From Thiothrix fructosivorans (lineage in GTDB: Bacteria; Pseudomonadota; Gammaproteobacteria; Thiotrichales; Thiotrichaceae): 64,000 nt of DNA. Positions 30,367 to 52,128 of the stretch are shown here, piece after piece (position 1 is the first letter of the stretch; every line of letters begins with the position of its first letter). The notes under the pieces were generated by a model. The model was not told the origin of the DNA. It searched no databases and worked only from the letters and a program-made list of their open reading frames with translations. Position numbers and translations under genes: made by a program. The DNA lies in NCBI RefSeq assembly GCF_017349355.1, contig NZ_JAFMPM010000008.1, positions 1,240,001 through 1,304,000 on the forward strand. Reading direction: 5' to 3'.

Positions 30367-30383
30367 TGTTAAGAAATGTTAAG
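30367..30383 (+). promoter_or_regulatory. Operator box 4, between DMT exporter and acyl ligase genes
   Basis: The sequence is TGTTAAGAAATGTTAAG, facing the ligase gene. A good TATACT -10 lies at 30412-30417, 28 bp downstream, with no matching -35. This is the clearest activator-type promoter of the set and fixes the ligase start downstream of about 30424. Confidence 0.78.
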
Positions 30384-30477
30384 CAGTATGGGTGGTGATG
30401 AATTTTTTTTCTATACTCGACCGCTCAATACCCCAATCCCTATCCAGACCCCTATCAGTAAAACAGAGGTTAATACG

Positions 30478-35549: not shown

Positions 35550-37464
35550 AGTGTGTTTGTAAATCCGTGCGGAAGGCGTTGGTTTGTTGCTTAGTATCGA
35601 AGTTTTCTAGCGTGCCGCCTGCCTCGAAATGGCGGATAAAGATGTTGCCCGTGGCGTAAATGACTGCACCTGACAGGGCGGATAAGCTGGCTCCACCGCT
35701 GAGCGTCCCAATGCCGGGTATTAGTTTGGTCAGGCTGCTTAAGCCGATGATAGTGGTCGTAGGCAGGGTACTGCTGAGTAGGGAGAATAGTTTGGCTTTC
35801 GCCAGCTTTTTATCGAAACCGACGGCATAGTGCTGGCTGAGTTTGTCCAGCAAGTGCAACTGGGTGCTGGTTAAGGCTGCCACATCCAGCAGGGGGATGG
35901 GGATGGCACTCATCGCAGCACCTGCCAACAGGTGTTTTCTGACAATCCGCTGTGCGTGTTGGCGGCGTTCGGTATGGATAGCTGCCAAATCGGAGAGGGT
36001 AGGTATTGCCTCTGGCGGTGATTCGGCGGTATGGGTTGTTTCTAGAATGCTGTTTACTTGTTCCATTACCGGTTCTTTAGGCGGAACTAGCACGGGTTCT
36101 GGTTGTGCAATCACCGGAACAGTTGCCACCGTGTCACCCAGCAAAAGGATGTGTCGTTCTTTCAGCCGCATCAGTATATGGTCGGCATGGGTACGCAGTT
36201 GATAAAACTCCGGCATGTGTGCCAGTGGTACGGAAACCGTATTCGCCAGTTCGCCATGTAAGTTGTGTAGGCGGGCAATTTCCTGTTCGGTGGCGGGTAA
36301 ATCAAGGCTGTCCAGTTTGCGGTCGAGCTGGCTCAGGGTTTTATACCAAGGGTAAATGCGTGACCGGATACGCCATTGGTACAAGGGCATAATACCTTTA
36401 CTGAGTGGGATCAGTAGGGTAAGCAACGGAATCAGCATGATTTTGAGTTGATCTAGCCGCGATGCAAGCCAGAAGGGGAAGATTTTTTCCAGCCAAGACG
36501 GACCTTGCTGGAGGTATTGTTCGGCAGTCGGATGGATGGGGATTTCCAGATGGTCAATAGAAGGGAACTCGCGGGGCTTTTCCAGGAGACCTTGTTGGCT
36601 ATGGATTTTGTGGGCTTCTCGACTGAAGAGGCGCACATGTTCAGGGTGAATATCCTTGCCCGCTACCAATGTCGCAGCGGTGGTCAGCATCGTTACATTG
36701 TGGTCAGGCAAGTTATTTTTCAGGTCGATGATGCCTTCGCCCAACGTTAGAGCATTCAGAAAGGGGTAATGACTGGTGTACGTAATACTTTGCCGCTGGA
36801 AATCCATCAAGGCGATGTCAGGTGAGCTGATGAGTTTGGAGACGATAGCTGCGTTGGGAAGCGTCATGATGAATAGTGCATCTATTTCACCGGCGAGCAG
36901 TTTGGTTTCAGCTTCATCCATGAGCAGGGGTTGCAAGCTGCTGTTATCCTTCGTAATGTCATTGTCGGTCAGCAATTGCGAGACGAGGACTTGCGTGCCG
37001 CTACCTTGTTTGCCAATCGACAAGCGTTTGCCACGCAAGGCATTCAGGTGGCTGATGTCACCCAATTCTTTGCGGTAGAATACCCATAAAGGTTCATAAA
37101 ACAGGCTGGCAATGGAGTGTAAACCCTGTTCGGCGGCATCCGGCAGGGTGCTGTGGGCAACACCGCCTTGCACCAAGGCTAAATCTGCTTTCCCCTCTTT
37201 AACTATTTGCAAGGCTTCGACTGAACCCGCCACGGAAACAATCTCAAGGCTGAGACCTTCCGCTTGAACATTTTGCTGATAACGTTTAGCGTAATCGTAA
37301 TACGCGCCGCTCGTACCGCCTACGGCAATCTTCAAGGTGTTGGCGGCTGATGTGGGCACGAATTGCCACGCCACATAAAACCCGATTACCAGTATTACCA
37401 TCAGGGGTAGCCAGATTTTGCAGAACTCACATGTGAACTTGAACTTCAGTTTTAGCTTCTTCAT
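35542..37464 (-). CDS. TAXI-type solute-binding domain fused to DUF697-like domain
   Basis: This 640-residue protein has a membrane helix near 16-36. A TAXI-family periplasmic solute-binding domain follows (about 43-310), beginning LKIAVGGTSGAYYDYAKRYQ and containing DLALVQGG and IGKQGSGTQVL. A second membrane helix pair is near 335-360. The C-terminal part has a charged helical region and a proline-rich linker, and the last 150 residues are a DUF697-like domain with IPIPLLDVAAL, LIPGIGTLSGGAS and HFEAGGTLENFD. TAXI proteins normally serve TRAP transporters, but no TRAP permease is present and the receptor is anchored, so it is probably a sensor passing a signal to the DUF697 part. I know of no described protein with this fusion. 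Operator box 6 lies upstream. Confidence 0.82.
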   Translation of the reverse strand: MKKLKLKFKFTCEFCKIWLPLMVILVIGFYVAWQFVPTSAANTLKIAVGGTSGAYYDYAKRYQQNVQAEGLSLEIVSVAGSVEALQIVKEGKADLALVQGGVAHSTLPDAAEQGLHSIASLFYEPLWVFYRKELGDISHLNALRGKRLSIGKQGSGTQVLVSQLLTDNDITKDNSSLQPLLMDEAETKLLAGEIDALFIMTLPNAAIVSKLISSPDIALMDFQRQSITYTSHYPFLNALTLGEGIIDLKNNLPDHNVTMLTTAATLVAGKDIHPEHVRLFSREAHKIHSQQGLLEKPREFPSIDHLEIPIHPTAEQYLQQGPSWLEKIFPFWLASRLDQLKIMLIPLLTLLIPLSKGIMPLYQWRIRSRIYPWYKTLSQLDRKLDSLDLPATEQEIARLHNLHGELANTVSVPLAHMPEFYQLRTHADHILMRLKERHILLLGDTVATVPVIAQPEPVLVPPKEPVMEQVNSILETTHTAESPPEAIPTLSDLAAIHTERRQHAQRIVRKHLLAGAAMSAIPIPLLDVAALTSTQLHLLDKLSQHYAVGFDKKLAKAKLFSLLSSTLPTTTIIGLSSLTKLIPGIGTLSGGASLSALSGAVIYATGNIFIRHFEAGGTLENFDTKQQTNAFRTDLQTHYE

Positions 37465-38518: not shown

Positions 38519-39094
38519 GTGCGTGGATTGACCGAGCCAAGGTCGAGGCTAGAACCATTCTTCATTGAATACAACAGTACCTATCTGCATGGGGATCTGT
38601 TGCCCAAAGGGAATCAAGAACCACCAGAAGTGCTTTGTCTTTATGGAGGCGGGAAAGAAAGGCGCAGCAGTTTTTTGCTCTTACGGCATGTTTTGTTTGA
38701 GAAACATTCAATCTCATCCTGTGCGTTTGATTTCTATGAGGAATCACTCGATCCGTATCGACAAGAATACTTGAATCAGGCGACCGATATTATTGATGCC
38801 TGTTTTGATTCCCAGCCATTTAGTGTTGTAGCGGCAGACTTGAATGCTGAAGTGGCGTTACAATTGGCTAAACTATTCCCAGTACGTCAGCTGATTTTGC
38901 TGAATCCGCCAGCGGGTTGCCATGAAGCAAGGGAAACACCTTGTCAGGCCGTGGCGATGCCAGTTGAATCAACACAAACATTGGCTTACCTGAATACTAA
39001 CCCTACCTTGTTGTTGAAGGTCGCTCAGATGGTTAAGAATACCTTGCAGGGTGATGGTAGCCATGTGAGATGCAATTATAAGGAGTACGGCTAA
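38519..39094 (+). CDS. Degenerate alpha/beta-hydrolase-like protein
   Basis: This 191-residue protein shows an alpha/beta-hydrolase pattern: an early strand EVLCLYGGG, a central strand-turn VVAADLNAEVALQLAKLF and the following strand RQLILLNPPAG. At the nucleophile elbow, where GxSxG is expected, it reads A-D-L-N-A, so the catalytic serine is missing. The C-terminal third of the fold is also short. It is likely a non-catalytic relative or a remnant. The start is GTG with AGGGGA at a good distance. Its stop overlaps the next start (TAATG), tying it to the P-type-ATPase-like fragment. Confidence 0.6.
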   Translation: MRGLTEPRSRLEPFFIEYNSTYLHGDLLPKGNQEPPEVLCLYGGGKERRSSFLLLRHVLFEKHSISSCAFDFYEESLDPYRQEYLNQATDIIDACFDSQPFSVVAADLNAEVALQLAKLFPVRQLILLNPPAGCHEARETPCQAVAMPVESTQTLAYLNTNPTLLLKVAQMVKNTLQGDGSHVRCNYKEYG

Positions 39095-39855
39095 TGATCC
39101 ACCTACCTTTTCTTCTCCCTTTGCTAGCAGCGGGGGTCGTTCGAGCCATGTGGCGTGAGCATCAGCAGGGTAAAGTATTTGTAAATTCACCCTTAGGTTT
39201 GCCTGATCCGACGACGGGTACAGCACAGGCAACATTGCCCACACATCAAGCGGACAAGGCATTCGATGATGTTGGCGAGTTGCATCATTACCAAAAGGTT
39301 GCTTGGTACAGTCTGGCATTTGCTGCGTCTGGTTCATGGTTTTATCCACCCGCTACTTTGCTGAGTATTCCTTTGTTGGGATACAACGCTTATCACTTTA
39401 CTAAGCTCATTCGGCATACGGATGCGGCTGGGCGCAAGTCACCCATGACTGTTTTTGAAAGTATCGCTTTGGCAGGTTCATTGGTGACAGGGCAGGCAAC
39501 CACAGCATCGGTCATGTTTTTGTTGATATTTGGTTCGCGTAAGCTGCTATTGCAGGCGGGTAATATCGCTGATATTGGTCTTTCCCGTACCATGGATCCG
39601 CGCTTTGCCAAAATGTGGATTTTACGGGATGGTGCAGAAATTGAAGCATCACTACGCGAGATACAGGAAGGCGATGTGGTGGTGATAAGAAACGGTGATA
39701 CGGTACTGGTGGAAGGTAAAGTTTTGGAAGGTGAAGGGGTTGTCCGCCAATACAGTCTGTTAAAAAAGCCTAAATCCATCAATAAGCAAACGGGGGATAA
39801 AGTTTTTCCTTTCACCCAATTAAAATCGGGTTGTTTATATATTCAACGCGTGTAA
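39094..39855 (+). CDS. Truncated P-type-ATPase-like protein (membrane helices and actuator only)
   Basis: This 253-residue protein matches the N-terminal part of the island's P-type ATPases. It has membrane helices near 1-20 and 70-150, then an actuator domain with IQEGDVVVIRNGDTVLVEGKV. Where TGES should be it has L-L-K-K-P-K-S, and the protein ends right after the actuator, with no P or N domain. DNA following the stop is AT-rich and encodes no missing part, so this is an old truncation or a purposely short partner protein. It is the fifth P-type-ATPase family member here and the third that cannot pump. It is translationally coupled to the hydrolase-like gene. The 240 bp to the next gene hold one GTTAAG half-site (40033-40038) but no full operator. 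Confidence 0.68.
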   Translation: MIHLPFLLPLLAAGVVRAMWREHQQGKVFVNSPLGLPDPTTGTAQATLPTHQADKAFDDVGELHHYQKVAWYSLAFAASGSWFYPPATLLSIPLLGYNAYHFTKLIRHTDAAGRKSPMTVFESIALAGSLVTGQATTASVMFLLIFGSRKLLLQAGNIADIGLSRTMDPRFAKMWILRDGAEIEASLREIQEGDVVVIRNGDTVLVEGKVLEGEGVVRQYSLLKKPKSINKQTGDKVFPFTQLKSGCLYIQRV

Positions 39856-40098: not shown

Positions 40099-40803
40099 AT
40101 GACTATGTTGCAAAAACATGCAATGAGAAAACTGCTGATTGTCGATGATGATGAAATTTTACAGAGTTTTTTGCAGAAATATCTGGATCGTGCACAGTAT
40201 GAAACTGAGAGTCTGCTGGATGGAAGTCATTTACCCGGAGTGCTTAGTAGTGTCCGGACAGATTTGATTGTGTTGGATGTGGAATTGCCCAGCAAAGACG
40301 GTTTTTATTGGCTTAAATGGTTACGGCAATACCATCCCCACATTCCGGTCATTATGGCTTCTGTCAGAAGTAACGAACATGATCGCTTAGCGGGTCTGGA
40401 GCAAGGTGCACGCGATTATCTGGTCAAACCTTTTCAGTGTAAGGAGCTGTTGCTCAGGATTGAGAACATCCTCGGTAGTACTCAACCCAAAAGCAACAGT
40501 ACGCTGCTCCGTATCGGGGAACTGGAATTGGATACTCATGCTTGTACCATCGTCAATGGGCATAAGGAGATTAAACTGACTTTGCTGGAAACCAGTATTC
40601 TTAAATTACTCTACATAAACAGTGGTGCTCCGGTCAGCCGTGATGACATCATGGCGCAGGTAAAAGGTACTAGCCATAACCCGCTTGATCGCAGTATTGA
40701 TATACATATCAATAAACTGCGTAAAAAGATTGAAACTAATCCCGCAACCCCACAGTACATTCGCACAGTCAGGGGAAAAGGCTACCGTTTACATCGTAAT
40801 TGA
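40099..40803 (+). CDS. OmpR-family response regulator, C-terminus altered by IS insertion
   Basis: This 234-residue regulator has a receiver domain (about 10-125, phosphoacceptor Asp60 in VLDVELP) and an OmpR/PhoB-type winged helix (about 135-232) with LTLLETSILKLLY and a recognition-helix region DRSIDIHINKLRKKI. The IS66-family copy 2 entered within its last codons: the present end is GYRLHRN, while joining across the duplicated target gives GYRLHLAELTT. The winged-helix fold is complete, so the regulator may still work. It was the first gene of a two-gene unit with the Hpt at 42499. It is the only DNA-binding response regulator in the island and the natural candidate to bind the TGTTAAG repeats. 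The exact start is uncertain; 40123 is an alternative. Confidence 0.88.
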   Translation: MTMLQKHAMRKLLIVDDDEILQSFLQKYLDRAQYETESLLDGSHLPGVLSSVRTDLIVLDVELPSKDGFYWLKWLRQYHPHIPVIMASVRSNEHDRLAGLEQGARDYLVKPFQCKELLLRIENILGSTQPKSNSTLLRIGELELDTHACTIVNGHKEIKLTLLETSILKLLYINSGAPVSRDDIMAQVKGTSHNPLDRSIDIHINKLRKKIETNPATPQYIRTVRGKGYRLHRN

Positions 40804-42435
40804 TCACATCCCCACCCCTTGCGGTAAAGCGGGCAGGGCAAAGCCAGCGCGGGCAGCGGTAATAACACTGGCAAGATAAGCCAAGGCAGACTGTCCACGT
40901 TTGCGGCAAGTACCGATGATGCTGGCCAGCATGGCAAACGCACGGCTCCCCGTAGCACTCTTTGTGCCATGGTTGGTTTTGCGCAGGATCACCCAATGGC
41001 GCAACGCCCGCTCAGCCTCATTATTGGTCAAGGGAAGCCACGGGTGGTCAAGGATTCGGAAAATGGCATCCCAATCATTGATGAACTCTTTCGCCAGTGC
41101 CGCCGTCTTGTCATGGGCAGATACGGCATGGATCAAGCATAATGCCCTGAATTCCAGGAGTTTTGCCTGATGGCGTTGACGGATCACGTCGGTTTGCGTC
41201 CCCACCGTGCCGCCTGCTGCCCGCCAAGCGTAAATGTCGTCCTGTAATACCCTCAGCCAAGCGAGGGTGAAGTTGCCAAACGTCCGCCCGTCTTTGTCCA
41301 GTGATTCTGCCAGCCCACGGGCTTTGCGGATCAGGTGCGCCCAGCAACGCAAGCGTTTGGGGTGGTGGCGGTAAGCGGCATAGCCATCACTCATCAGCCA
41401 GCCCCCAAAGTGGGGGCTAATCACGTTGTCGAGCATTTCAATGGTGCGCTGCCCTACGTAGAAACAAACGCTGAGGGTGGTGACGAATGTCCATAGCCAC
41501 AGGGCTTCGCCACGCTCTTTCCAAGAGGTTTCATCAATATACAGCACCCCGCCGTCAGCGGTGGCTTCTGCCAACAGCCCTTCCACCAAGGCATCTTCCA
41601 ATGGAGAAGCACTCGCGGCTGCTTCCTCAAAACATTGCTGCAACACCCCGACACTTAGGGGAATGCCCAACACCTCCCGCAACAGTTCTTGTGTGCCACG
41701 CAGTGACAAGCGTGAGCGCAGCCGTAGGTGGACAATAAGTGCCGCCAGATTGCCCCCAATCAGCCGCCACTCGCCCACATCAACCTCCGGGTATAACGGG
41801 TCGGGAGCTTGGCGATGCGGGATATGGCGGCTCACATGACCGCAGGTGCATACGCTATCGTGAAGGTGGTGGCGGGTGGTGATGACGGTCAGTCCGGGGT
41901 TCCCATCCGTGCCAAACTGGATGTCCACACTGTCATAGGCGGTATAAATACGGGAGACAGCCGCATCCAGGGACCTGCCACAGGCTTCACATCGGCTGGG
42001 GTAATGGTGTTCGTCTGCATTGATGGGCGGATGCCATACCCGACCATAACCCGGTGCGCCGGGTTGTTTACCCGCTTTGCGTTTGGCTGGTTGGGCTGGC
42101 TTTGTGCCCGCCACAGCTTCTGGTTCCGGGGTTGGCTTTCCTCTGGCTGCACCCACCCCTTCTGTTTCGGGCAAAGCCACCGTTTTGGGTGACGTTTCCC
42201 ACGGGAAACCGCTGCTGGGTGGTTTGGAGGAGTTGTTGGAGTTTTGGTTGATCTGTTCCCGCGCTTCTTTCAGGTCATGCAACAACTTGGTCGACAGGTG
42301 CAGCAGTTCCTCCGGCGTGAGCTTGGCAAGGTACTGGCTGTTAAGCTGTTTGAGGCTGTGGTCTTTCAGTTGTTGGGTCATCGGGGGAGTGTCGCAAATT
42401 TAGTGCGTTTGGGTAAGGGGGGACTGTTCAGTTAC
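40796..42435 (-). mobile_element. IS66-family insertion sequence, copy 2 (1640 bp)
   Basis: This is the same 1640-bp element as at 10332-11971, in opposite orientation, with the same GTAA-starting ends. The perfect 8-bp target duplication is TTTACATC (40788-40795 and 42436-42443). It splits the regulator-Hpt operon, replaces the last residues of the regulator, and separates the Hpt gene from its promoter by 1.6 kb with the transposase read antisense. Confidence 0.95.
40804..42381 (-). CDS. IS66-family transposase (copy 2)
   Basis: The 525-residue protein is identical to that of copy 1, including the NSSKPPSS segment, the CxxC zinc module and the IDETSW, SDGYAAY and NNEAERALR core motifs. It reads leftward into the 3' end of the response regulator gene and ends one base after the regulator's new stop codon. 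The frame is complete. Confidence 0.95.
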   Translation of the reverse strand: MTQQLKDHSLKQLNSQYLAKLTPEELLHLSTKLLHDLKEAREQINQNSNNSSKPPSSGFPWETSPKTVALPETEGVGAARGKPTPEPEAVAGTKPAQPAKRKAGKQPGAPGYGRVWHPPINADEHHYPSRCEACGRSLDAAVSRIYTAYDSVDIQFGTDGNPGLTVITTRHHLHDSVCTCGHVSRHIPHRQAPDPLYPEVDVGEWRLIGGNLAALIVHLRLRSRLSLRGTQELLREVLGIPLSVGVLQQCFEEAAASASPLEDALVEGLLAEATADGGVLYIDETSWKERGEALWLWTFVTTLSVCFYVGQRTIEMLDNVISPHFGGWLMSDGYAAYRHHPKRLRCWAHLIRKARGLAESLDKDGRTFGNFTLAWLRVLQDDIYAWRAAGGTVGTQTDVIRQRHQAKLLEFRALCLIHAVSAHDKTAALAKEFINDWDAIFRILDHPWLPLTNNEAERALRHWVILRKTNHGTKSATGSRAFAMLASIIGTCRKRGQSALAYLASVITAARAGFALPALPQGVGM

Positions 42436-42498: not shown

Positions 42499-42846
42499 AT
42501 GACAAACGTTGGCAGAGAAGAGGTACTGGATAGTCTGCTGGAAAACTTAGGGATGACAACTACGGTTGAATTGTTGGCATTCGCTTTGCCACATATCGGT
42601 CAGAGAAGGGATAGCTTACAGCAGCTTTTGCAAGCCGGTGATTGGGAAGGTGCTGGGCGGGTTGCCCATAAAACATTGAGTTCAGCACGTTTGTATAGCT
42701 CAAGCCAGTTTGAGACTTTATTGAGGAAAGTGAGTCAACAAGATATAGCAGTTATTGCTACAGCGGAATTCCAGACAATGTTAGATGAAGAATTTTCTTT
42801 CACGATTAAAGCGCTGGAACAATGGCTGGCTTCGGCGGCTGCCTGA
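42499..42846 (+). CDS. Histidine phosphotransfer (Hpt) domain protein
   Basis: This 115-residue all-helical protein carries the Hpt motif VAHKTLSSARLYSS with the phosphorylatable His57. It should carry phosphate from the receiver domains of the two hybrid kinases to the OmpR-type regulator at 40099. Restoring the DNA before the IS66 insertion puts it about 40 bp after the regulator, in one operon. Its present expression may depend on an outward promoter of the IS. Its 3' end overlaps the convergent PPTase gene by 112 bp. Confidence 0.8.
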   Translation: MTNVGREEVLDSLLENLGMTTTVELLAFALPHIGQRRDSLQQLLQAGDWEGAGRVAHKTLSSARLYSSSQFETLLRKVSQQDIAVIATAEFQTMLDEEFSFTIKALEQWLASAAA

Positions 42847-43502
42847 ACACAATAGGCAAGGCAATGGTTTGTTCCAGCCCGGTAAGCGTCAAACTGCCAG
42901 CTTTTTCCGACTTCTTCTAAACCCGGCTCACACGATAAATGCCAGCGGCTGGTCTTCCAACGGTAGAAAGCAAACTGTTGCAAGGGTAACTGTAAACCCA
43001 TGCCACGCGCCTTGATATACGCTTCTTTCAAAGTCCAGTAAGTGAAAAAACGGTCGGCTTGCGCGTTTGGGCAAGGGGCAGAGAGAACATCGTTTGCCTC
43101 TAGCGGCGTTAATACATACTGGCATAAGGCAGGCAAATCACTGGGGCGTTTGATGTTTTCTACATCGACACCCACCGCCCGTCCACGCGCCACGGCACAA
43201 GCAACCATCCCCTGCGTATGCGAAAGGTTAAATTGCAGCCAATCATAGCCGGGGTTGGCAATGGCAGGCTTGCCATAGGCATTGTGATTGAACTGCCATT
43301 GTGCAGGGTTGACCGGGGCATAACGGCTCAATACTCGTCTCAGGAAAACGTGGGCAGCCACATACAAATCCCGATCTTTAGGGAAACGGAATGCCTGCGC
43401 CCGTTGGTGTTCTTCCGGGCTGAGGATGTGTTCTGCCTCTGCACCTACATACCCATCCGGCTGTAACAGATGGATATGCACCTTATCCGCGAGTGCCTGC
43501 AT
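42735..43502 (-). CDS. Sfp-type 4'-phosphopantetheinyl transferase
   Basis: This 255-residue PPTase has the two signature motifs VGVDVEN and FFTYWTLKEAYIKARGMGL, plus FNLSHTQG in the middle. It transfers phosphopantetheine from CoA to the carrier-domain serine, most likely Ser1091 of the NRPS, the only carrier in the window. ATG 43502 is chosen because it overlaps the stop of the amt-like gene (ATGA) and begins the usual N-terminus; longer upstream frames lie in that gene. The last 35 residues, antisense to the Hpt gene, are unusual for the family. It is the last gene of the receptor operon, which ties the receptors to the biosynthetic half of the island. Confidence 0.88.
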   Translation of the reverse strand: MQALADKVHIHLLQPDGYVGAEAEHILSPEEHQRAQAFRFPKDRDLYVAAHVFLRRVLSRYAPVNPAQWQFNHNAYGKPAIANPGYDWLQFNLSHTQGMVACAVARGRAVGVDVENIKRPSDLPALCQYVLTPLEANDVLSAPCPNAQADRFFTYWTLKEAYIKARGMGLQLPLQQFAFYRWKTSRWHLSCEPGLEEVGKSWQFDAYRAGTNHCLAYCVQAAAEASHCSSALIVKENSSSNIVWNSAVAITAISC

Positions 43503-45334
43503 CAGTTGGCAACAATAGGTGTACGTTGACGGAAAGCCAGCAGCATCCATGCCGCCTGTGCCAATACCACGCTGTAGACTAGGCCGACCGCAATACCCTG
43601 TAACTGATACAGGAGCAGGGCAACATTTGGCATGGCAAACATGCCTTCCGACCCCAGCAATGCGACGCATAAACTACCCCATACTCCACCGACGCCATGA
43701 ATGGCTACCAGATACGCTGCCCGCGATTGCCATGCTTGCGTCAGGAACTGTTTGCGTAACATGCTGAAAGCTAGGTTATGTATCAAGCCTGCACTGATAC
43801 CGACGACCAGTGCTTCCATAAATAATAAGCTATGTGCTGATGCTGCGACCGCCACCAGCCCGGTGACAAAGCCGCCCAAGGCGCGTGCAATCATGCCTTT
43901 GCCGGTATGGAAAAAGCTGTAGTGCAGGAAAGCCACTAGACCAGCAGCAGCGGCAGCCAATACTACATTCAGCATGGTAGAACCAATCTGGTTGCCAGAA
44001 ATGGGCAGGGTTCCGGTGGTAAAGCCCAACCAGCTCAACCACAAGAACAATACAGCACTGGAAGAGTAGGCAGCGTCATCGTTGGCTTTGGTAGCACTGG
44101 CCTGTTCAGTATGCTGGCGCCCCAGTTTCCAGACCAACACAAAGGCGAACCATGCTGCTACTGAATGGATAGTGGTAGAACCAGCCGCATCCATAAAACC
44201 GGCGGCCTCCAGCCAGCCTTTGTTACCGGGGATAAATTGCCCTGCCCACGCCCAATGCCCAAAAACAGGCACAAGAATGATGCCGACAAAGGCTGCCAAC
44301 AAAAGGTGTGATGCGGCGGATAATTGCTTACCGATAGCGCTATAGATAATCAAGGTAGCCAACATGGTAAACCCAGCCTGATACAGAACAAATTCGGCAA
44401 AAGGAAATAGCGGCGCTTGGTTCGGGTCAGCCACGTCATTACTCAGCAGGTAGCTGGATGTACCTATCCACCCGCCAGCGGATGTGCCGAACATCAAACC
44501 AAATCCAACCAAGAAATAACCAAGAAATGCCCCCAGACAAACCAACAGGACACCCTGATGTTGGGGAGTGCCGTCTGGCAAGGGTTTGTAGTGCTCGCGG
44601 CTACTGGTTAATACATAAGCCAGTGGTGTCAGGAAAACCAGTACGATAGCCAGCAATGTCCACAGGCGATTCAGGCTCTTCATGAGTGTTGTTTGTTCTT
44701 CCTGTTTTTGATCGGCTACTTTGGTTTCAGACCCCTGTAGTGTTTCCAATTGCTTGGTCAGATCCGCAATCGTGATCAGAATCTCATACAAACGGGTGGC
44801 ATTGCCTTCGATCAGGGATTTTTGCGAGTAAATGTCACTGGCATTGGTGCGTACATCCCGGCTCAGTGCCAGTAAGTCGGTTTTCAGCTTTTCAATATCA
44901 GTGGTGTTAGACGTAATGTTGTTGCGGCTGGTATCCAGCCCGGAATAGGCTTCCTTGAGCTTGGTGTCGATCTGTTCTAGACCATTCTTAATGGTATCCA
45001 TGCTACTGCGGTTGAGTGTGGCATCCTCTTTGCTGTTGTCAATTTCTGTACGCAGGGATTCCAGTGTCTGTTGGATGATCTCGATGTTGTCCATGCTATT
45101 TTCGATTTTGGACTGAGCCTGTTCTTTGGAAGTGGCTGCTGCATCGGGAGTCCCCGTGCCTGATACGGGCGCAGCCGTTTGGCCTTTGATTTCAGCACTG
45201 GCAGATGGCAGGTCAGGGGCGGCTTTTTTTTCTTCGGTCAATCCGCTAAGGGGGAGACAAAGTATGAGCCATAACAGGATAAACCGAAACCCAGTGTGGC
45301 ACTGACGGGCTGGGGATGGGTAAGTTATTTGCAT
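43502..45334 (-). CDS. Amt-family ammonium transporter with N-terminal coiled-coil domain
   Basis: This 610-residue protein has a signal/anchor segment, a coiled-coil extracytoplasmic region (about 65-215, with many Asn/Asp/Ser heptads), a membrane helix near 225-245, and a full Amt domain of about eleven helices. The Amt part keeps the aspartate and first pore histidine in GFMDAAGSTTIHS and the second pore histidine in IHGVGGVWG, so conduction of ammonium or methylammonium is plausible. The added coiled-coil domain is not part of ordinary AmtB and suggests a sensing or assembly role. No glnK gene is adjacent. ATG 45334 follows GAGG by 7 bp and is preferred to an upstream TTG. It is 15 bp after the previous gene and coupled to the PPTase. 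Confidence 0.85.
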   Translation of the reverse strand: MQITYPSPARQCHTGFRFILLWLILCLPLSGLTEEKKAAPDLPSASAEIKGQTAAPVSGTGTPDAAATSKEQAQSKIENSMDNIEIIQQTLESLRTEIDNSKEDATLNRSSMDTIKNGLEQIDTKLKEAYSGLDTSRNNITSNTTDIEKLKTDLLALSRDVRTNASDIYSQKSLIEGNATRLYEILITIADLTKQLETLQGSETKVADQKQEEQTTLMKSLNRLWTLLAIVLVFLTPLAYVLTSSREHYKPLPDGTPQHQGVLLVCLGAFLGYFLVGFGLMFGTSAGGWIGTSSYLLSNDVADPNQAPLFPFAEFVLYQAGFTMLATLIIYSAIGKQLSAASHLLLAAFVGIILVPVFGHWAWAGQFIPGNKGWLEAAGFMDAAGSTTIHSVAAWFAFVLVWKLGRQHTEQASATKANDDAAYSSSAVLFLWLSWLGFTTGTLPISGNQIGSTMLNVVLAAAAAGLVAFLHYSFFHTGKGMIARALGGFVTGLVAVAASAHSLLFMEALVVGISAGLIHNLAFSMLRKQFLTQAWQSRAAYLVAIHGVGGVWGSLCVALLGSEGMFAMPNVALLLYQLQGIAVGLVYSVVLAQAAWMLLAFRQRTPIVAN

Positions 45335-45349
45335 ACAGAGCCTCAATGG

Positions 45350-46147
45350 TTATTTCTTTGTCGATTTAGTGGTAGGTGTTGCCAGCAATTGTGCGCAGTT
45401 TTGCCCTTTCAGCGTGGCTTGCAGGGCGTTATTTATGTCCTTGAACAAGTCAGTATCCTGTTCACGTAAAGCCAGTACCATCGCTGTGGCAGGTAATGTT
45501 TTAGGATCAGCTTCAATGACCTTGAAATGGAGGTAGCCTTCCAGTGAGGTATCCGTGATGCGTGCCTTGATCATGGCTTCTTCCGCAAATAGGGCATCCA
45601 GCCTGCCAAATACTAAGTCAAACACCGCACTATCGGCGAATGGATAAGCTTTTAAACGTGCTTGGCTGCTGTACTCATCCAGCAAATAAATGTGGAAAAT
45701 CGAGCCTTCTAGAACACCTAGGTTTGCTCCCCGGAAATCTTCCGGCTTGCTGCGCACGGATGCATCTGCTTTTTGGATAAACAGAGGTTTGGGTTTGCAA
45801 AGGGGTTGCGTTAACTGGAGTTTATCTACTTCTGGGGCAATAAAAGCATCAACGACCAGCAGCGCATTCAGTTTAACCGCCTGTAAATCCTGCAATAGTT
45901 GGTCGGGCGTACCACTAACAAATTCACACTTTGTCTGCATGTATTGGCAGGTTGCCTGAACAGCATCGACCAAGATACCAGCCGCTTGCTTTTGTGCATC
46001 CAGATAAGCGTAAGGTGGTCGTTGGGGGGGAATGCCAATATACAGGGACGGCTTGTCCGCAACGCTGGGTGTCGTTGATTCTGCAAAAGCAGGTAGGCTA
46101 AGGAGACTAAGCAACACTATGGAGTAACCACATATCAGGTATTTCAT
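45350..46147 (-). CDS. Periplasmic binding protein, family 3 (amino-acid type), orphan
   Basis: This 265-residue protein has a signal peptide (SLLSLPAFA-ES cleavage) and the family 3 solute-binding fold: LYIGIPPQRPPYAYLDAQKQAAGILVDAVQA at the start, a central LGVLEGSIFHIYL and DLVFGRLDALFAEEAM. These proteins bind amino acids or related small molecules in the periplasm. No ABC permease or ATPase for uptake is nearby, so it is probably a receptor subunit. Its start overlaps the stop of the receptor lipoprotein gene (ATGA). Confidence 0.8.
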   Translation of the reverse strand: MKYLICGYSIVLLSLLSLPAFAESTTPSVADKPSLYIGIPPQRPPYAYLDAQKQAAGILVDAVQATCQYMQTKCEFVSGTPDQLLQDLQAVKLNALLVVDAFIAPEVDKLQLTQPLCKPKPLFIQKADASVRSKPEDFRGANLGVLEGSIFHIYLLDEYSSQARLKAYPFADSAVFDLVFGRLDALFAEEAMIKARITDTSLEGYLHFKVIEADPKTLPATAMVLALREQDTDLFKDINNALQATLKGQNCAQLLATPTTKSTKK

Positions 46148-48210
46148 GGCGTGTTGCCTGTCTTTTTTTCAGGAACAGGTGTTGGGATATGGTCGTCAAC
46201 ACTATCTAAAAACGTGGCGGGAGCTAGATCCAGAAAAGGTGCATCAGAAAAACCTTGATATTGCAAACTACTGAGATTAATAGAAATTTCCGGCATCCCT
46301 ACCAAGTGCGAAGCCAGTTCATGTACTTTTACATTGTGTACCAGATCACGGTAAACCTCCATATTTCCCCTGCCTTGTGGGTCGACATCAGTGCGTTGGT
46401 TCAACACGATATCCACTCCGGTGAGATCGATTTGTTCACCAATAAAGATGGCAGGTACTTTAAAAAAAGTCATGCTACTGTTCAACCGCCCGACCAGTGT
46501 TTGGTTGATTCCAGCATGGTTGCTGATAAAGAAGGCATCGGCATTGAGTGATAATTTGCCATAACAGGCAATCAGTTCCCGTTCAATTTCATTCTTGCTT
46601 AAAGCCGAAAACGGGATGTCGCATCCCACCAGTTTTACCCCACTCTGTTCCGTCATCTGTTTGACGATAGAATAACCCGCTGCCAGCCGCCCATTTTCGG
46701 TGTCTTCATAAATCAGACCAATACGTTTGAACTGAAACATAGCTTGCGCAAGTTCTAATAGGCGAACTTTATGGTCGTCGCTGTGCACTGGGGTACTAAA
46801 AATTTCAGCGAAACTGAGCTTCTTACTGGTCTGCGTCTGTCCCGCTAATGTGTTTGTGGTGGGTGTTTGTGCGGGAGCGCTTGGCATTTCCGCTGATTGT
46901 TTAGCAGATTGCGCCGTGTTGTTTGGCTGCTCAGACGGTAGGACGGTTGTTTGCTCGACCGTTGGGGTGGCTGGCGGCAGATCGGGCTTTGATCGTGTAT
47001 TTTCCACTGGAGTAGTCGTATCACTCAGGCGCTTTTCAAAACGCTCCAGCAGAAACGGTAGGTGGATGGCTGGCAAGGGGCGGAATTCGCCGCGCTGCCA
47101 GACGTTGAAAACAAAGTGTTTGCCATAAAGGTCACCCACACCATTATAGGCATACAAACCCGTAACCCCAAGCCATGCAGGCAAGTAGTGCATCGTTGAC
47201 GATAACAAGGCTGGTACTGTTGAACCTGCTTTTTCAATGGCGGCTGCGAGCAGCATTACTGAGTCATAACCTTGGGCAGCGTTGTAGTCAGGCTCTTCCT
47301 GATACTTGTCCTTATAACGTTGGATAAAAGCTGTATCACGGGGATTCTGGTTATTGGGGCGATACACCGCTGGCACGATGGTATTTTGTCCCGCTTCTCC
47401 TACGGTTTTGGCATAGGCGGGCAGGTTGAAGCCATCACCACCAAGGATGGGCTTGTTGATGCCCATTTCCCGGAGTTGTTTGACCATATTGCCGCCCGGT
47501 TGGGAAGGGGAGGCGATGAAAACGGCATCAAAGTCTTTGCCCGTAAATTGTGAAATCAACGGACGGTAATTGTCTTCTTTTTCAAAAAACGAAGAGTTTT
47601 GCACCAGTTTTATGTCCCGTTTGACTGCCGCATCCTCAAACAGGAAAGCCAGTTCACGGCTAAGGTCATCACGGGCGTAAAGAATAACTACATTTTTGTA
47701 GCCAAGGTATTGAGCGACACTGGCGATCTGTTCCGTCATGACGGCTGCATTAGGCATCATACGGAATACATACTGAAAATTATGTCCGGTTAATTCTTGT
47801 GCGGTCGAAAAGGGTGGGATGAATAGGATCTGGCTACGTTCGTAAACGACCGAGGCGGGTACAGCGATACTGGAACTACGATGTCCCAGTACAGCCGTCA
47901 CTTTGGGATCGGCAGCAATGCGGCGAATGGTGGGCTTGGTGTCATCAAACGATTCCCCATCCTGTTCGATACTGACATTCAGGGAACGCCCCATGAGTTT
48001 GTTAGGACGCTGATTGATTTCTTCAGCAGCCAGAAGAACGCCGTTCAGGTAGTTACTTTTATAGGTATCCTGTACCGCCACGAAGTGGATGTCCCCTGTA
48101 TTCTGGCGGGCATAATCCAGCCGCTGCTGTGCCATCTGTTCATAATCAGGGCTACACGCCGCAAGGTTTAGGCAGACTATCAGCCATACTAGCAGGCGGG
48201 TAGCATTCAT
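46144..48210 (-). CDS. Lipoprotein with two periplasmic receptor domains
   Basis: This 688-residue protein starts with a lipoprotein signal ending LNLAAC (lipid-bearing Cys19). The first part (about 40-385) is a LivK-like family 6 periplasmic binding domain, with HFVAVQDTYKSNYLNGVLLAAEEIN, an AVLGHRSS segment and a PNAAVMTEQIASVAQYLGYKNVVILYA stretch. A Pro/Thr/Gln-rich linker (about 400-460) leads to a second Rossmann-like receptor domain (about 470-660) with RIGLIYEDTENGRLAAGYSIVKQM, resembling ABC_sub_bind/TrpX-type domains. Tandem receptors in one lipoprotein are unusual, and no Liv permease genes are present. It is translationally coupled on both sides (SPFH upstream, family 3 protein downstream). 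Confidence 0.78.
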   Translation of the reverse strand: MNATRLLVWLIVCLNLAACSPDYEQMAQQRLDYARQNTGDIHFVAVQDTYKSNYLNGVLLAAEEINQRPNKLMGRSLNVSIEQDGESFDDTKPTIRRIAADPKVTAVLGHRSSSIAVPASVVYERSQILFIPPFSTAQELTGHNFQYVFRMMPNAAVMTEQIASVAQYLGYKNVVILYARDDLSRELAFLFEDAAVKRDIKLVQNSSFFEKEDNYRPLISQFTGKDFDAVFIASPSQPGGNMVKQLREMGINKPILGGDGFNLPAYAKTVGEAGQNTIVPAVYRPNNQNPRDTAFIQRYKDKYQEEPDYNAAQGYDSVMLLAAAIEKAGSTVPALLSSTMHYLPAWLGVTGLYAYNGVGDLYGKHFVFNVWQRGEFRPLPAIHLPFLLERFEKRLSDTTTPVENTRSKPDLPPATPTVEQTTVLPSEQPNNTAQSAKQSAEMPSAPAQTPTTNTLAGQTQTSKKLSFAEIFSTPVHSDDHKVRLLELAQAMFQFKRIGLIYEDTENGRLAAGYSIVKQMTEQSGVKLVGCDIPFSALSKNEIERELIACYGKLSLNADAFFISNHAGINQTLVGRLNSSMTFFKVPAIFIGEQIDLTGVDIVLNQRTDVDPQGRGNMEVYRDLVHNVKVHELASHLVGMPEISINLSSLQYQGFSDAPFLDLAPATFLDSVDDHIPTPVPEKKTGNTP

Positions 48211-49253
48211 GGCTTGTCACCTGTCGCAGGAGGGGGATTAGTCAGTTTTTGTTCGTTTGGTACGCTGGTCGAAGGCTGCTTATCCTTGTCCTTGGTTTTT
48301 TTCCCGTCGGCTTGGGCAGCAGGCGTTGTGGTTTCAGTGAGGGGGGCATCCGCTGGCAGTGTTTCTGATGTTGCCGGGATGGGGGAACTAACGCCATTAT
48401 CGCCGCCCAGAATGATGGGAAGACCATCTTTGCCAGAACCAATTACCACAACTTTGGCGTTGGGTGAAGCTGCCAGCTTTGCGGTAGCTTCAATACCTTT
48501 ACTACGCAGCACTTGCTCGGTCAACGAGCTATTGATGGTATCGTGGTAAGTTTTGATACCCCCCGCTTCGATAGCCATCCGTGCGGCTTCCTGCTCGGCT
48601 GTCTTAAGACGGAATTCATAGGATTTCATGAATTCTTCCTGTTTCAGTTTGTCTTCGATGGCATCGACGATTTCTGGGGGGAGGGTGATGCTACGGATGA
48701 TGATGTCTTCGACGGCTACGTAGTTACGCCCTACCTCATCCAAAGCGCTGAGGATGGCATTCGTCAACAGTCCTGCTTCGTTCGTGTAAATTTGTTCAGC
48801 AGTGTAACTGCCTAATTGCTTACGCATGACCGATTCGATCTGCGGCAGGATGACCAGATTCAGGTAATCAGGGCCGATACGTTGGTGGAGAATACCCAAC
48901 AGTTCATATTCAGGACGGTAACGTACCGCGAGTGACAAGTGGATGCTCAATCCCTTGTTGGTAATAACATCAAACTCATGTAGTGCTATTTGCTTGCGCA
49001 CGTCGTAGAGGTACATGGTATTGAACGGATTGATGATATGTATCCCTTCTGGATAAATCGTATCGGTTTCTGTGCCGCCGCCAAACAGACGATAGAGCAC
49101 GCCCGCTTGACCGGAGTGGATAGTGATCACAATACGGTTAAAAAAGAAAATAACCACTAACGCAGTCAGCAGGGTCGCAACAATCAGTAGGGGCACTTTG
49201 CGCCTAATCCAGCGTTTGAATTGCGCATTGGCGCTGATGGGTTTGTTTTCCAC
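48207..49253 (-). CDS. SPFH/prohibitin-family membrane protein
   Basis: This 348-residue protein has an N-terminal membrane helix (about 22-42) and an SPFH (stomatin/prohibitin/flotillin/HflK) domain starting ITIHSGQAGVLYRLFGGGTETDTIYPEGIHIINP. A helical region rich in Ala/Glu (about 210-270) and a disordered Pro/Thr/Lys-rich tail follow. SPFH proteins build large membrane rings or scaffolds and organise partner proteins. As first gene of the operon with the receptors, Amt and PPTase, it may assemble these into a membrane complex. The start is GTG. A promoter TTGACA-16-TATACC lies about 70 bp upstream; this operon has no TGTTAAG operator. Confidence 0.82.
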   Translation of the reverse strand: MENKPISANAQFKRWIRRKVPLLIVATLLTALVVIFFFNRIVITIHSGQAGVLYRLFGGGTETDTIYPEGIHIINPFNTMYLYDVRKQIALHEFDVITNKGLSIHLSLAVRYRPEYELLGILHQRIGPDYLNLVILPQIESVMRKQLGSYTAEQIYTNEAGLLTNAILSALDEVGRNYVAVEDIIIRSITLPPEIVDAIEDKLKQEEFMKSYEFRLKTAEQEAARMAIEAGGIKTYHDTINSSLTEQVLRSKGIEATAKLAASPNAKVVVIGSGKDGLPIILGGDNGVSSPIPATSETLPADAPLTETTTPAAQADGKKTKDKDKQPSTSVPNEQKLTNPPPATGDKP

Positions 49254-49363: not shown

Positions 49364-49400
49364 AAAACCAAAAACCACCCAAAACACGCGTTCTGGGTGG
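49364..49400 (-). terminator. Intrinsic terminator of the 75-residue protein gene
   Basis: Read on the minus strand, CCACCCAGAAC and GTTTTGGGTGG form an 11-bp stem (one G-T pair) with a GCGT loop, followed by TTTTTGGTTTT. This is a strong rho-independent terminator. Confidence 0.85.
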
Positions 49401-49428: not shown

Positions 49429-49656
49429 TCAGGCAGCGGCCATGACGGGTGCGGCTGTATTCTTTTTGCCGAACATCTTGCCAAAGGCGTAGTAAGTCCC
49501 TAGACCCAACAATGCCCCGCCTGCGACAGCCATACCCATCGGGTGGCTCAGCGCAAAGACTTTGGCGGTAGTGCCCATATTGGCTAGTGAATTGCCAATC
49601 GTTGCTAAGGTGCTGTTGGAACCGGCTGCTGCTGCGGTTGCTGCTTCTGCTTCCAT
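49429..49656 (-). CDS. Small Ala-rich membrane protein
   Basis: This 75-residue protein has an Ala/Gly/Ser-rich N-terminus, one membrane helix near 40-60 (MGMAVAGGALLGLGTYYAFG), a basic GKMFGKKN segment and an alanine tail. No family is recognised. It is a real gene: an AGGAGA ribosome site precedes the ATG, a TTGACT/GATAAT promoter (18-bp spacing) lies upstream and a strong terminator follows. Operator box 7 lies 110 bp upstream. It resembles the other small Ala/Gly-rich membrane proteins at 28885 and 34797 in style. Confidence 0.72.
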   Translation of the reverse strand: MEAEAATAAAAGSNSTLATIGNSLANMGTTAKVFALSHPMGMAVAGGALLGLGTYYAFGKMFGKKNTAAPVMAAA

Positions 49657-49705: not shown

Positions 49706-49735
49706 ATTATCAACGCCTGTCCAAAATTGAGTCAA
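49706..49735 (-). promoter_or_regulatory. Promoter of the 75-residue protein gene
   Basis: On the minus strand TTGACT (49730-49735) and GATAAT (49706-49711) are 18 bp apart, about 50 bp upstream of the start codon. Confidence 0.6.
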
Positions 49736-49765: not shown

Positions 49766-49782
49766 TGTTAAGTTTTGTTAAG
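49766..49782 (+). promoter_or_regulatory. Operator box 7, upstream of the DUF697 pair and PotD-like gene
   Basis: The sequence is TGTTAAGTTTTGTTAAG: both half-sites are perfect and the 3-bp spacer differs (TTT for AAA). A TATGAT -10 candidate lies at 49815-49820, 32 bp downstream, as for box 3. Confidence 0.72.
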
Positions 49783-49865: not shown

Positions 49866-50447
49866 ATGCCACTTACCGTTGAAGCGGTCGATGTTATTAC
49901 CGGTAGCCACCCCACTGATCCAGTCACGGAATTGGAGGCGGTTGCCGCCGAGGTGCAAGAAATCACCGCCAGCAGTATTGTCAAAAACCACCTGATTACC
50001 AGCATGGGTTTGGGATTAGTACCCATTCCACTGTTTGATGTATCTGCCTTGACGACGGTGCAAATGAACATGCTACGCAGCTTGAGTGCGCATTATGGTG
50101 TGCCCGTGAGAGATCAAGACCTCAAGTCGATGTTGCTTTCCCTCGCAGGCGGGGCAATGCCAGTGCTGGCAATCGTTGGGTTAAGCAGTTTTGCCAAAGT
50201 GATACCGGGAATCGGCACATTGGCAGGTAGCGCCAGCCTTAGCGTATTGGCAGGTGCGGTGACTTATGCAGTGGGGCAGACTTTTATCCTGCATTTTGAA
50301 GCAGGCGGTACGCTGGAAAACTTTGATCCAAAACAGGCACAAGCATTTTTCCGGCGTGAACTGGCAATGGGTAAGTGCTTGGTACACAGCATCAGGGACG
50401 AGATCAACGGTTCCAAAAGACGTAGTAGGCAGATATTGCCGCAATAG
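49866..50447 (+). CDS. DUF697-like membrane protein (copy c)
   Basis: The 193 residues comprise a short polar N-terminus and a DUF697-like domain: LVPIPLFDVSALTTVQMNMLRSLSAHYGVPV, hydrophobic segments with VIPGIGTLAGSASLSVLAGA, and HFEAGGTLENFDPKQAQAFFRREL. It is closest in pattern to copies a and b. It is the first gene of a rightward unit with copy d and the PotD-like protein, preceded by operator box 7. The ribosome site is AGGATAC close to the ATG. Confidence 0.8.
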   Translation: MPLTVEAVDVITGSHPTDPVTELEAVAAEVQEITASSIVKNHLITSMGLGLVPIPLFDVSALTTVQMNMLRSLSAHYGVPVRDQDLKSMLLSLAGGAMPVLAIVGLSSFAKVIPGIGTLAGSASLSVLAGAVTYAVGQTFILHFEAGGTLENFDPKQAQAFFRRELAMGKCLVHSIRDEINGSKRRSRQILPQ

Positions 50448-50474: not shown

Positions 50475-51044
50475 ATGGCGGATGAGGGGGAAGATGTCTG
50501 GCAGCCAATTGAGGCGGATTCTGCTTTGGCTCAACAGGCTGATCAGGTACGTTTGAACGCTGAAAAGCAGGCTGCTTGTGCCGCGAAAGCTGATAGCATC
50601 ATCAAATCCAATGTTGCCCAAGCGATGGCAATGGGATTGATCCCTGTGCCACTGTTGGATGTGATTGCACTCACCAATATCCAGTTCAAGATGGTGGATG
50701 ATTTGGTTAAGTTATATGGCATACGTTATACCCATATTGAGAAGGCTGTAGTACGCTCCTTCATTCTGGGGATGTTACCGGTAGTGGCTGTGGCAGGGTT
50801 GGGGAGTGCCTTTAAAGTATTACCGGGTGTTGGTTCATTTGCAGGTGGTGCAAGTGTATGCATAGTGGCAGGTGGTTTGACTTATGCCACGGGCAAAGTG
50901 TTTGTGCAACATTTTGCAACAGGAGGAACTCTGCAAGATCTTGATCTGGTAACAGCCAAGCAGCATTTCATGCGTGAGTTCCGCCGGGGCAAGCAACTCG
51001 CTAAAGAACGGCTAAACGATCCACCGTTACTTTTGCACTCTTAA
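50475..51044 (+). CDS. DUF697-like membrane protein (copy d)
   Basis: This 189-residue protein is the most divergent DUF697 copy. It keeps LIPVPLLDVIALTNIQFKMVDDLVKLYGI, VLPGVGSFAGGASVCIVAGG and the tail motif as QHFATGGTLQDLD. An N-terminal acidic, Gln/Ala-rich helix of about 50 residues precedes the domain. It begins 27 bp after copy c, with AGGGAGGGG upstream, and ends 22 bp before the PotD-like gene. Confidence 0.78.
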   Translation: MADEGEDVWQPIEADSALAQQADQVRLNAEKQAACAAKADSIIKSNVAQAMAMGLIPVPLLDVIALTNIQFKMVDDLVKLYGIRYTHIEKAVVRSFILGMLPVVAVAGLGSAFKVLPGVGSFAGGASVCIVAGGLTYATGKVFVQHFATGGTLQDLDLVTAKQHFMREFRRGKQLAKERLNDPPLLLHS

Positions 51045-51066: not shown

Positions 51067-52128
51067 ATGCAACACGTTATTTTGGGCATATTCCTGACAC
51101 TGGTGCTGATGTTACCTGCGCAGGCGGCTGGTACAGGCAGTAACACAGCCATCGCGGAAGAAACCGTCATTGTCTATAACTGGTCAGATTACATACCGGA
51201 AGGGGTACTGGAAGATTTTACCCGTGAAACCGGTATCAAAGTTGAATACCTGACCTACAAAAACAATGAAATCATGTATACCAAGCTGAAATTATTGAAA
51301 GGGCGGGGTTATGATGTGCTGATTCCCTCTACTTATATGGTGGAGCGGCTACGCAAAGATGGTTTGCTCCAACCACTCAATAAGACACTGCTTAGCAATT
51401 TTAAACAGCTTGATCCTGATTTGCTCAATAAACTGTATGACCCGGGTAATGAGGTGAGCGTGCCTTACTTGTGGGGCAGTGTTGGTCTGGGGGTTAACGC
51501 CAACAACCCAGCCGCCACTAATGTGACCTCATGGTCAGATTTATGGCATAAGCAATGGCGTGACAAACTATTACTGCTGGATGACATGCGTAGCGTGTTT
51601 CATATGGCGCTGAGTCTGGATGGACATTCCACCAATGCTACTGCTCCAGAGGAAATCAAGCAGGCTTACGAACGTCTGCAAAAATTGATGCCTAATGTTC
51701 ATTTACTTGGGGATGCAAACCCTGATGAACCTTTCGCAAGCGGGAAGGTGGATTTAGGATTGCTCTGGAATGGCGATGCAGTACTTGCCCATAGCAAGAA
51801 TCCGGCAATCCGCTATGTATACCCCAAGGAAGGAGCTAGTTTCTGGATGGATAGTTTTGTGATTCCAGCGCGTGCCAGTAACCCGGAAAATGCGCACAAG
51901 TTCATTGACTACATGCTGCGCCCAGAAGTGGCAGTACGTTGTGTCAAGGAACTGGGGTACGCTACGCCCAATTTGACTGCGAAATCCATGCTGGATACTG
52001 AAACGCGAGAAAATCCAACGATTTTCCCTTCCCCTGAGAGGTTGGCAAAAGCGGAATTCCAACGTGATATTGGCGATGCTCAAGATCTTTATATGCGTTA
52101 TTGGGCAAAGTTGAAAGCGGGACGCTAA
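51067..52128 (+). CDS. PotD/PotF-like polyamine-type periplasmic binding protein, orphan
   Basis: This 353-residue protein has a signal peptide (LTLVLMLPAQAAG) and the family 1 binding-protein pattern of polyamine receptors: VIVYNWSDYIPEGVLEDFTRETGIKV, YDVLIPSTYMVERL, VPYLWGSVGLGVN and a C-terminal SPERLAKAEF segment. It should bind spermidine, putrescine or a related amine. PotABC transporter genes are absent, and it follows two DUF697 genes, repeating the theme of a receptor paired with DUF697 proteins seen in the TAXI fusion. The unit ends at the hairpin at 52144. Confidence 0.85.
   Translation: MQHVILGIFLTLVLMLPAQAAGTGSNTAIAEETVIVYNWSDYIPEGVLEDFTRETGIKVEYLTYKNNEIMYTKLKLLKGRGYDVLIPSTYMVERLRKDGLLQPLNKTLLSNFKQLDPDLLNKLYDPGNEVSVPYLWGSVGLGVNANNPAATNVTSWSDLWHKQWRDKLLLLDDMRSVFHMALSLDGHSTNATAPEEIKQAYERLQKLMPNVHLLGDANPDEPFASGKVDLGLLWNGDAVLAHSKNPAIRYVYPKEGASFWMDSFVIPARASNPENAHKFIDYMLRPEVAVRCVKELGYATPNLTAKSMLDTETRENPTIFPSPERLAKAEFQRDIGDAQDLYMRYWAKLKAGR

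Follow-up and report, generated by a model that had tools for sequence, protein, structure and literature searches.

What brings a membrane scaffold protein, two orphan solute receptors, an ammonium transporter homolog, and a phosphopantetheinyl transferase (PPTase) together in one operon? The question is raised by five codirectional open reading frames (ORFs) on the minus strand (49253-42735) of a 64,000-nucleotide (nt) stretch of the Thiothrix fructosivorans genome (contig NZ_JAFMPM010000008.1, positions 1,240,001 to 1,304,000), hereafter the window, whose numbering is used throughout. Our tentative answer, to which we give a probability of about 0.45, is that the operon supplies a periplasm-facing SPFH platform for the export, maturation, and sensing of the specialized metabolite of the gene island in this window.

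Composition and conservation of the operon

The five ORFs encode an SPFH/Band_7 protein of 348 amino acids (aa) with a conserved GTG start (48207-49253), a LIV-type lipoprotein of 688 aa (46144-48210), an ArgT-like family-3 solute-binding protein (SBP3) of 265 aa (45350-46147), an ammonium transporter (Amt) homolog of 610 aa (43502-45334), and an Sfp/HetI-type PPTase of 255 aa (42735-43502). The SPFH/lipoprotein (48207/48210) and lipoprotein/SBP3 (46144/46147) junctions each overlap by 4 bp, SBP3 and Amt are 15 bp apart (45350/45334), and the Amt and PPTase genes overlap by 1 bp within TGATG, placing the PPTase ATG at 43502. Pfam assigns the domains Band_7, Peripla_BP_6, SBP_bac_3 (PF00497), Ammonium_transp, and ACPS plus AASDHPPT_N (PF01648 and PF22624), in agreement with the tightly coupled five-gene set of the first-pass annotation. 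The true start of the operon lies one gene earlier, at an ORF that this annotation did not contain (49429-49656, minus strand). Its product is a 75-aa, glycine-rich small membrane protein (GGALLGxGxYY) that is conserved at seven related loci (L061-L066 and L117) and has no match in Pfam or NCBIfam. A terminator-like hairpin separates this gene from the SPFH gene (49375-49400, minus strand) and is probably an attenuator; hairpins of differing sequence occupy the same place in relatives, so that expression of SPFH and the genes after it probably depends on read-through.

The SPFH protein matches Band_7 (PF01145) with 91.3 bits against a cutoff of 23.6 (E = 1e-25), and its match among PDB profiles is prohibitin-2 (5.5e-18). 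Its scores against the HflK and HflC equivalogs, 18.9 and 15.3 bits, are below the cutoffs of 159.4 and 134.4. Six lysines or arginines precede the single N-terminal transmembrane segment and one follows it, such that the positive-inside rule predicts a periplasmic SPFH domain.

The first domain of the lipoprotein (PF13458, 1.9e-40) has a complete LIV-type fold (TMt of 0.91 for the model against PDB 4mlc), and its lipobox cysteine, Cys19, is invariant in the alignment; the Peripla_BP_6 domain, the LIVBP fold, and the lipobox together assign it to the LIV type. It had been described as a tandem receptor, which is correct for the first domain, but the second half is partial: the model shows a single Rossmann-like lobe at residues 467 to 600 and is not confident over the C-terminal 80 residues. 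SBP3 aligns with arginine-binding proteins, and the column of the arginine that contacts the ligand carboxylate is occupied by V, I, or T in all six sequences. Among the annotated genes of the window there is no permease or ATPase partner for either receptor. The LIV-type permeases of the genome are on C5, C6, and C7, none of them in the island, and a LIV-type binding protein lies beside the C5 pair. The window encodes another orphan binding protein, a fusion of a TAXI-type TRAP receptor with a DUF697 domain (35542-37464, minus strand), with relatives in four other genomes.

The Amt domain (residues 217 to 610) is well supported by sequence (PF00909, 143.7 bits against a cutoff of 23.2) and resembles Amt structures in the PDB (TMt of 0.66 to 0.74), in an AlphaFold model whose mean pLDDT is only 60.8. 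Ahead of it, following a signal peptide, the model contains helices at residues 68 to 103 and 109 to 199. This N-terminal extension has a heptad period of 3.52 (0 of 500 shuffles were as strong) and maintains a single register for 20 heptads, from residue 67 to about 206. These roughly 140 residues would form a stalk of about 20 nm (at 1.5 Å per residue of helix). Its core positions are mostly I, L, V, M, or A, with asparagine at several d positions, as is familiar from trimeric coiled coils. Amts are trimers with an N-out topology, which makes a stalk of three strands the straightforward interpretation, and because a signal peptide or N-terminal transmembrane segment precedes it, the stalk is predicted to be periplasmic. 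When placed in a tree alongside 21 further Amts from the class, the stalked, coiled-coil Amts (CC-Amts) group in one clade with support of 100/100. The best matches of the Amt domain, both in sequence and in fold, are the sensor Amts Ks-Amt5 (6eu6) and Sd-Amt1 (8qj3, 8qj4, and 8qpf). The window protein, the sole CC-Amt found by sequence in its genome, retains both residues of the twin-histidine pair; in most relatives the first is N, S, or G and/or the second is L or Q. Two ordinary Amts are encoded elsewhere in the genome.

A search of 144 relatives for the lipoprotein and the Amt yielded nine carriers, including T. fructosivorans itself. The two genes are adjacent in seven of the relatives (G005, G013, G015, G021, G023, G054, and G057), and a truncated contig of G052 likewise carries the Amt. 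The species scan described below ties G005 to Candidatus Thiothrix singaporensis, a member of the GTDB genus to which the window's genome belongs. Apart from two broken assemblies, the order SPFH, lipoprotein, SBP3, Amt is kept in the eight Thiotrichaceae-family relatives, again with junction overlaps of 1 to 4 bp and an SBP3-Amt gap of 7 to 30 bp. Identities to the window proteins are 57 to 70% for SPFH and 40 to 58% for Amt. A close-sequence scan with the Amt protein alone as a query found no relatives, which were recovered by the whole-genome search and the SPFH alignment. Some of these genomes are incomplete metagenome-assembled genomes (MAGs) with frameshifts, in which the absence of a gene is weak evidence.

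A wider scan of 84,980 species, one genome per species, with two peptide patterns returned 23 SPFH loci, a lower bound, all of them gammaproteobacterial. The hosts include Crenothrix, Methylococcaceae, Methylumidiphilus, Leucothrix, Albibeggiatoa, a Chromatiaceae MAG, and symbionts, methanotrophs among them. The lipoprotein gene directly follows the SPFH gene at 21 of the 23 loci; L120 reaches a contig end, and at L139 two DUF697 genes intervene. In a marine MAG lineage, "BB" (L132-L137), SPFH adjoins a one-domain lipoprotein, and neither SBP3 nor CC-Amt is alongside, suggesting that SPFH and the lipoprotein constitute the core to which SBP3 and Amt are additions. In the relatives, the operon runs on downstream into a C45-family (Ntn) acylase, which scores over the NF040521 cutoff, and usually a cyclic-peptide exporter, and it is flanked divergently upstream by DUF697 genes and a PotD-like protein. 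Conservation of the five-gene operon is therefore confirmed for the four-gene core, and all five genes recur in order in Crenothrix, but the fifth position, that of the PPTase, is not conserved.

The PPTase has an ACPS domain pair with GVDVE and WxxKEA motifs, as in Sfp-type enzymes, and its best NCBIfam match, HetI, is below the cutoff. It is the only Sfp-type PPTase of its genome; the other ACPS-domain protein is elsewhere, on C6. It comes immediately after the Amt gene at just two loci, those of the window and of Crenothrix (L117, where the annotated 44-bp overlap with the Amt gene reflects start choice). G023 and G054 have it farther down the cluster, and in the other carriers it is unlinked. 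Nevertheless, such a PPTase is present in eight of the nine operon carriers (it is absent only from G057, which is 74% complete) versus 0 of 17 noncarriers.

The substrate of this enzyme need not be a nonribosomal peptide synthetase (NRPS). Condensation domains were detected in G000, G005, G013, and G015, and there was no match in G021, G023, G054, G057, Crenothrix (G144), G149, G152, G153, or G155; incomplete MAGs account for some of the latter, although completeness is 99% for both G021 and G023. We therefore rejected a strict dependence of the operon on an NRPS, since several carriers have no condensation-domain match; what the PPTase generally acts with is therefore some carrier protein, which may or may not belong to an NRPS. 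In the window, the biosynthetic genes of the island (1141-5787, 23033-24352, 26486-27556, and 30376-33575) comprise a salicylate/isochorismate-synthase-like protein, an EgtD-like methyltransferase, an acyl-CoA/adenylate ligase, a tryptophanase-like lyase, and an NRPS of the order C-A-PCP-reductase. The NRPS is nearest to MxcG, and none of these genes reaches an equivalog cutoff. In G054 (contig C227, L101/L065), a genome with no condensation-domain match, proteins that by sequence resemble an amidinotransferase, a P450, and a flavin monooxygenase accompany a P-ATPase relative, and would represent a different chemistry on the same chassis.

The island operator and its regulators

The operon had been described as lacking the operator of the island. 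An exact copy of this element, TGTTAAGTTTTGTTAAG, is in fact present at 49766-49782 (plus strand), within the promoter region that separates the small gene from a divergent DUF697 gene. It is a direct repeat, TGTTAAG-N3-TGTTAAG, in the style of PhoB/OmpR sites. All six exact copies in the 4.36-Mb genome are inside the island, and the window holds seven copies with up to two mismatches, versus 0.40 expected. The same-place operator at L061, L062, L063, L064, and L066 is identical in all 17 bases, including the TTT spacer, and has one mismatch in Crenothrix (L117) and two in Leucothrix (L067). Across 26 genomes, an exact operator occurs in eight of the nine carriers (not in the fragmentary G052) and in 1 of 17 noncarriers (G012), and the reversed pattern gave two matches altogether. 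Two copies of the operator occur at the G012 locus (L106, G012:C8:1-7560), together with a hybrid kinase and a P-ATPase relative that is split; G012 has no SPFH operon, and the locus is possibly a remnant or minimal version of the system. Because every exact copy is inside the island, a coregulated permease elsewhere in the genome is not likely, and the claim that the receptors lack transporter partners stands for this neighborhood.

The operator is also fixed in position. A consensus scan places a sigma70-like promoter, TTGACT-N18-GATAAT, at 49706-49735 (minus strand), with 30 nt between the operator and the -35 element and 54 nt to the -10 element; these distances are the same at L061, L063, L064, L066, L067, and L117. 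At L062, they are 19 and 43 nt, shorter by 11 nt, close to one helical turn. On the other side of the operator, a TATGATA-like -10 element lies at 32 nt in the window and at L061, L062, and L066, such that the site would look like a shared activator site for both divergent operons. The sigma70 promoter proposed directly before the SPFH gene (TTGACA-16-TATACC) fails the same scan, and none of the relatives checked has a TTGACA/T hexamer at its place. The operator and its fixed spacing thus point to coinduction with the island, rather than to production before induction as the first-pass annotation had proposed.

The candidate activator is an OmpR/PhoB-type response regulator (40099-40803, plus strand; PF00072 and PF00486), which is present in eight of the nine system genomes. 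A candidate relay protein, Hpt-like, is encoded at 42499-42846 (plus strand; PF01627, E = 0.0036, below the cutoff); G023 and G052 encode homologs adjacent to the regulator gene, and G021 has one close by. We infer a relay from an intact hybrid kinase (16234-18597) through the Hpt-like protein to the regulator. In a second hybrid kinase, of the 7TMR-DISM type (19848-22159, minus strand), a probable frameshift has left two ORFs.

The divergent operon that shares the operator begins with two DUF697 genes (49866-50447 and 50475-51044, plus strand; both PF05128), the second in the same order at L061, L062, and L065. It ends with a PotD-like (spermidine/putrescine) binding protein lacking a permease (51067-52128, plus strand; PRK09501, 3.7e-119, below the equivalog cutoff), whose gene is conserved beside the SPFH operon.

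A proposed periplasmic platform and its alternatives

Several features suggest how these proteins might work together. The charge distribution of SPFH, the lipobox, the secretion of SBP3, and the stalk on an N-out Amt would place all parts on the periplasmic side, and the loss of the ligand arginine in SBP3 and of the twin-histidine pair in most of the CC-Amt clade argues against plain nutrient uptake. The conserved gene order, the confinement of the operator to the island, the cooccurrence with the PPTase, the exporter and acylase of relatives, and the sensor character of the nearest solved Amts also speak for such a platform. In the platform that we favor, the prohibitin/HflKC-like SPFH protein would act as an inner-membrane scaffold, on whose periplasmic side the LIV-type lipoprotein, the modified SBP3, and the trimeric stalked Amt would gather. 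The platform would receive a specialized metabolite built on the carrier proteins of the island, hence the PPTase, and the metabolite would be matured in the periplasm, with a PvdE/SyrD-type exporter and a C45 acylase on the same transcript in most carriers. What it might then sense or hold is either the product or a small ligand containing nitrogen; the receptors would act as sensors or chaperones and not as importer parts. Coinduction with the island would depend on the direct-repeat operator, to which the OmpR-type regulator, receiving its signal from the hybrid kinase and Hpt, probably binds.

Several observations weigh against this platform. In the window, the cyclic-peptide (PvdE/SyrD-type) ABC exporter (12001-13629, plus strand; TIGR01194, 322 bits against a cutoff of 286) is beside the NRPS, whereas in relatives it is inside the operon, and the genome has no homolog of the C45 acylase. 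The window Amt, with both histidines, could still conduct ammonium; SBP3 and CC-Amt are not essential to the core, as the marine lineage demonstrates; and the lack of a condensation-domain match in several carriers implies that the metabolite varies in class or is not a peptide. Our probability reflects that contact among the parts, the ligand, and the product are inferred and that the acylase was lost from, or never present in, this genome. Two identical 1,640-bp IS66 copies in opposite orientation (10332-11971, plus strand, and 40796-42435, minus strand) are also present, one lying between the ABC genes and the other overlapping the 3'-terminal bases of the response regulator gene, which it splits from Hpt. 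An inversion between them as the cause of the exporter's distance from the operon was rejected, since each is flanked by a separate 8-bp target duplication (AGTGTAGG and GATGTAAA).

A bolder form of the platform, which we regard as doubtful and which would be a periplasmic organizer of an undescribed kind, has the SPFH cage enclosing the orphan receptors and the trimeric Amt, whose 20-heptad stalk could span the periplasm and link metabolite export and sensing to the outer membrane, the module being exchanged among sulfur- and methane-oxidizing gammaproteobacteria with different biosynthetic genes.

It is unlikely that the operon instead scaffolds a metal- or polyamine-handling membrane compartment, akin to a ferrosome or efflux platform, with P1B-type ATPase relatives, DUF697 proteins, and small glycine-rich proteins as its body. 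P-type ATPase relatives, DUF697 genes, and small membrane proteins do recur with the operon (the window contains ATPase relatives at 5655-7232, 7229-9469, 18599-19951, 24363-26486, and 39094-39855, with similar sets in relatives), PotD-like and ArgT-like receptors have polyamine and basic amino acid folds, and mycobacteria have P-ATPase platforms with scaffold proteins (PMC9374683). However, the CPx metal motif is absent from the transmembrane segment of all aligned relatives, replaced by GSNF, NSGFG, and others; the copies at 5655-7232 and 18599-19951 also lack DKTGT, and that at 39094-39855 is an N-terminal part only. Moreover, the mycobacterial platform is flotillin independent (PMC9374683), and the family libraries identified no ferrosome genes. 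The identity of these proteins as metal P1B-ATPases or ferrosome components is thus not supported, and the open-access literature on ferrosomes provided no link.

Somewhat less probable is an ammonium- or amino acid-sensing operon that gates NRPS activation through the comade PPTase and is expressed before induction of the island. The nearest solved Amts are sensors, known relatives with the SBP3 and LIV folds are amino acid binders, the window Amt keeps its twin histidines, and the PPTase is on the same transcript both here and in Crenothrix. But the operator and its spacing indicate coinduction, the PPTase is elsewhere in most relatives, and the arginine of SBP3 is lost. With a twin-histidine pair that is not conserved across the clade and two canonical Amts elsewhere in the genome, the proposed perception of nitrogen compounds is weakly grounded, and its linkage to NRPS activation was too strong a claim, as Leucothrix, Crenothrix, and other carriers have no condensation-domain match. 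A protease-control or lipid-domain module of the FtsH-HflKC kind, unrelated to metabolite or nitrogen, is very improbable despite the similarity of the SPFH domain to prohibitin and HflK, given scores far under the cutoffs (18.9 versus 159 bits for HflK), no FtsH gene seen among annotated neighbors, and strict linkage to the receptors and the island operator.

As a natural experiment, the operon could show whether export and receptor proteins are brought together by SPFH cages. It also provides a handle on a regulon (operator, kinase, and regulator) and on a metabolite system common to filamentous sulfur bacteria and methanotrophs. Cytoplasmic output domains of Amts have been reported at the C terminus; a conserved clade with an N-terminal, trimer-type periplasmic stalk, always encoded beside SPFH and orphan receptors, suggests that an Amt has been reused as a periplasmic organizer or receptor.

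Comparison with known systems

The architecture appears to be new: the open-access literature on an SPFH-Amt-NRPS system, on Thiothrix or Crenothrix clusters, and on Sd-Amt1 contained nothing on point. Its closest functional parallel is pyoverdine maturation, in which PvdE exports an acylated precursor that the Ntn hydrolase PvdQ then deacylates in the periplasm (PMC6206403). The two share the exporter subfamily, an Ntn-type acylase (C45 in the relatives), and adjacent carrier-protein biosynthesis genes. In contrast to pyoverdine, the C45 enzyme belongs to a family other than that of PvdQ and is absent from the window's genome, and the pyoverdine system has no counterpart of the SPFH, receptor, and Amt proteins.

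The individual parts have relatives as well. Like the cages of prohibitin and HflK-HflC, the SPFH protein has a Band_7 domain, one N-terminal transmembrane segment, and a predicted noncytosolic location, but it scores below the HflK/HflC cutoffs, always occurs with a receptor lipoprotein and with no FtsH seen nearby, and ends in a low-complexity C-terminal tail. The sensor Amts Ks-Amt5 (PMC5764959) and Sd-Amt1 are the nearest domain matches of the CC-Amt, which shares the bulky F/Y at the position of Ks-Amt5 F27. Ks-Amt5 is a fusion of Amt and histidine kinase that keeps the twin histidines yet translocates ammonium inefficiently (PMC5764959, PMC10433425). Unlike these sensors, CC-Amt ends after the Amt domain, with no cytoplasmic kinase or cyclase, carries an N-terminal periplasmic coiled coil, forms a separate clade, and has lost the twin histidines in most members. 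The PacL1-CtpC platform (PMC9374683) has in common with our system the idea of a scaffolded membrane assembly, P-type ATPase relatives, and small membrane proteins; it differs in that the assembly proposed here has no CPx motif and no PacL (DUF1490) match and would be built on an SPFH protein, whereas the mycobacterial platform does not depend on flotillin.

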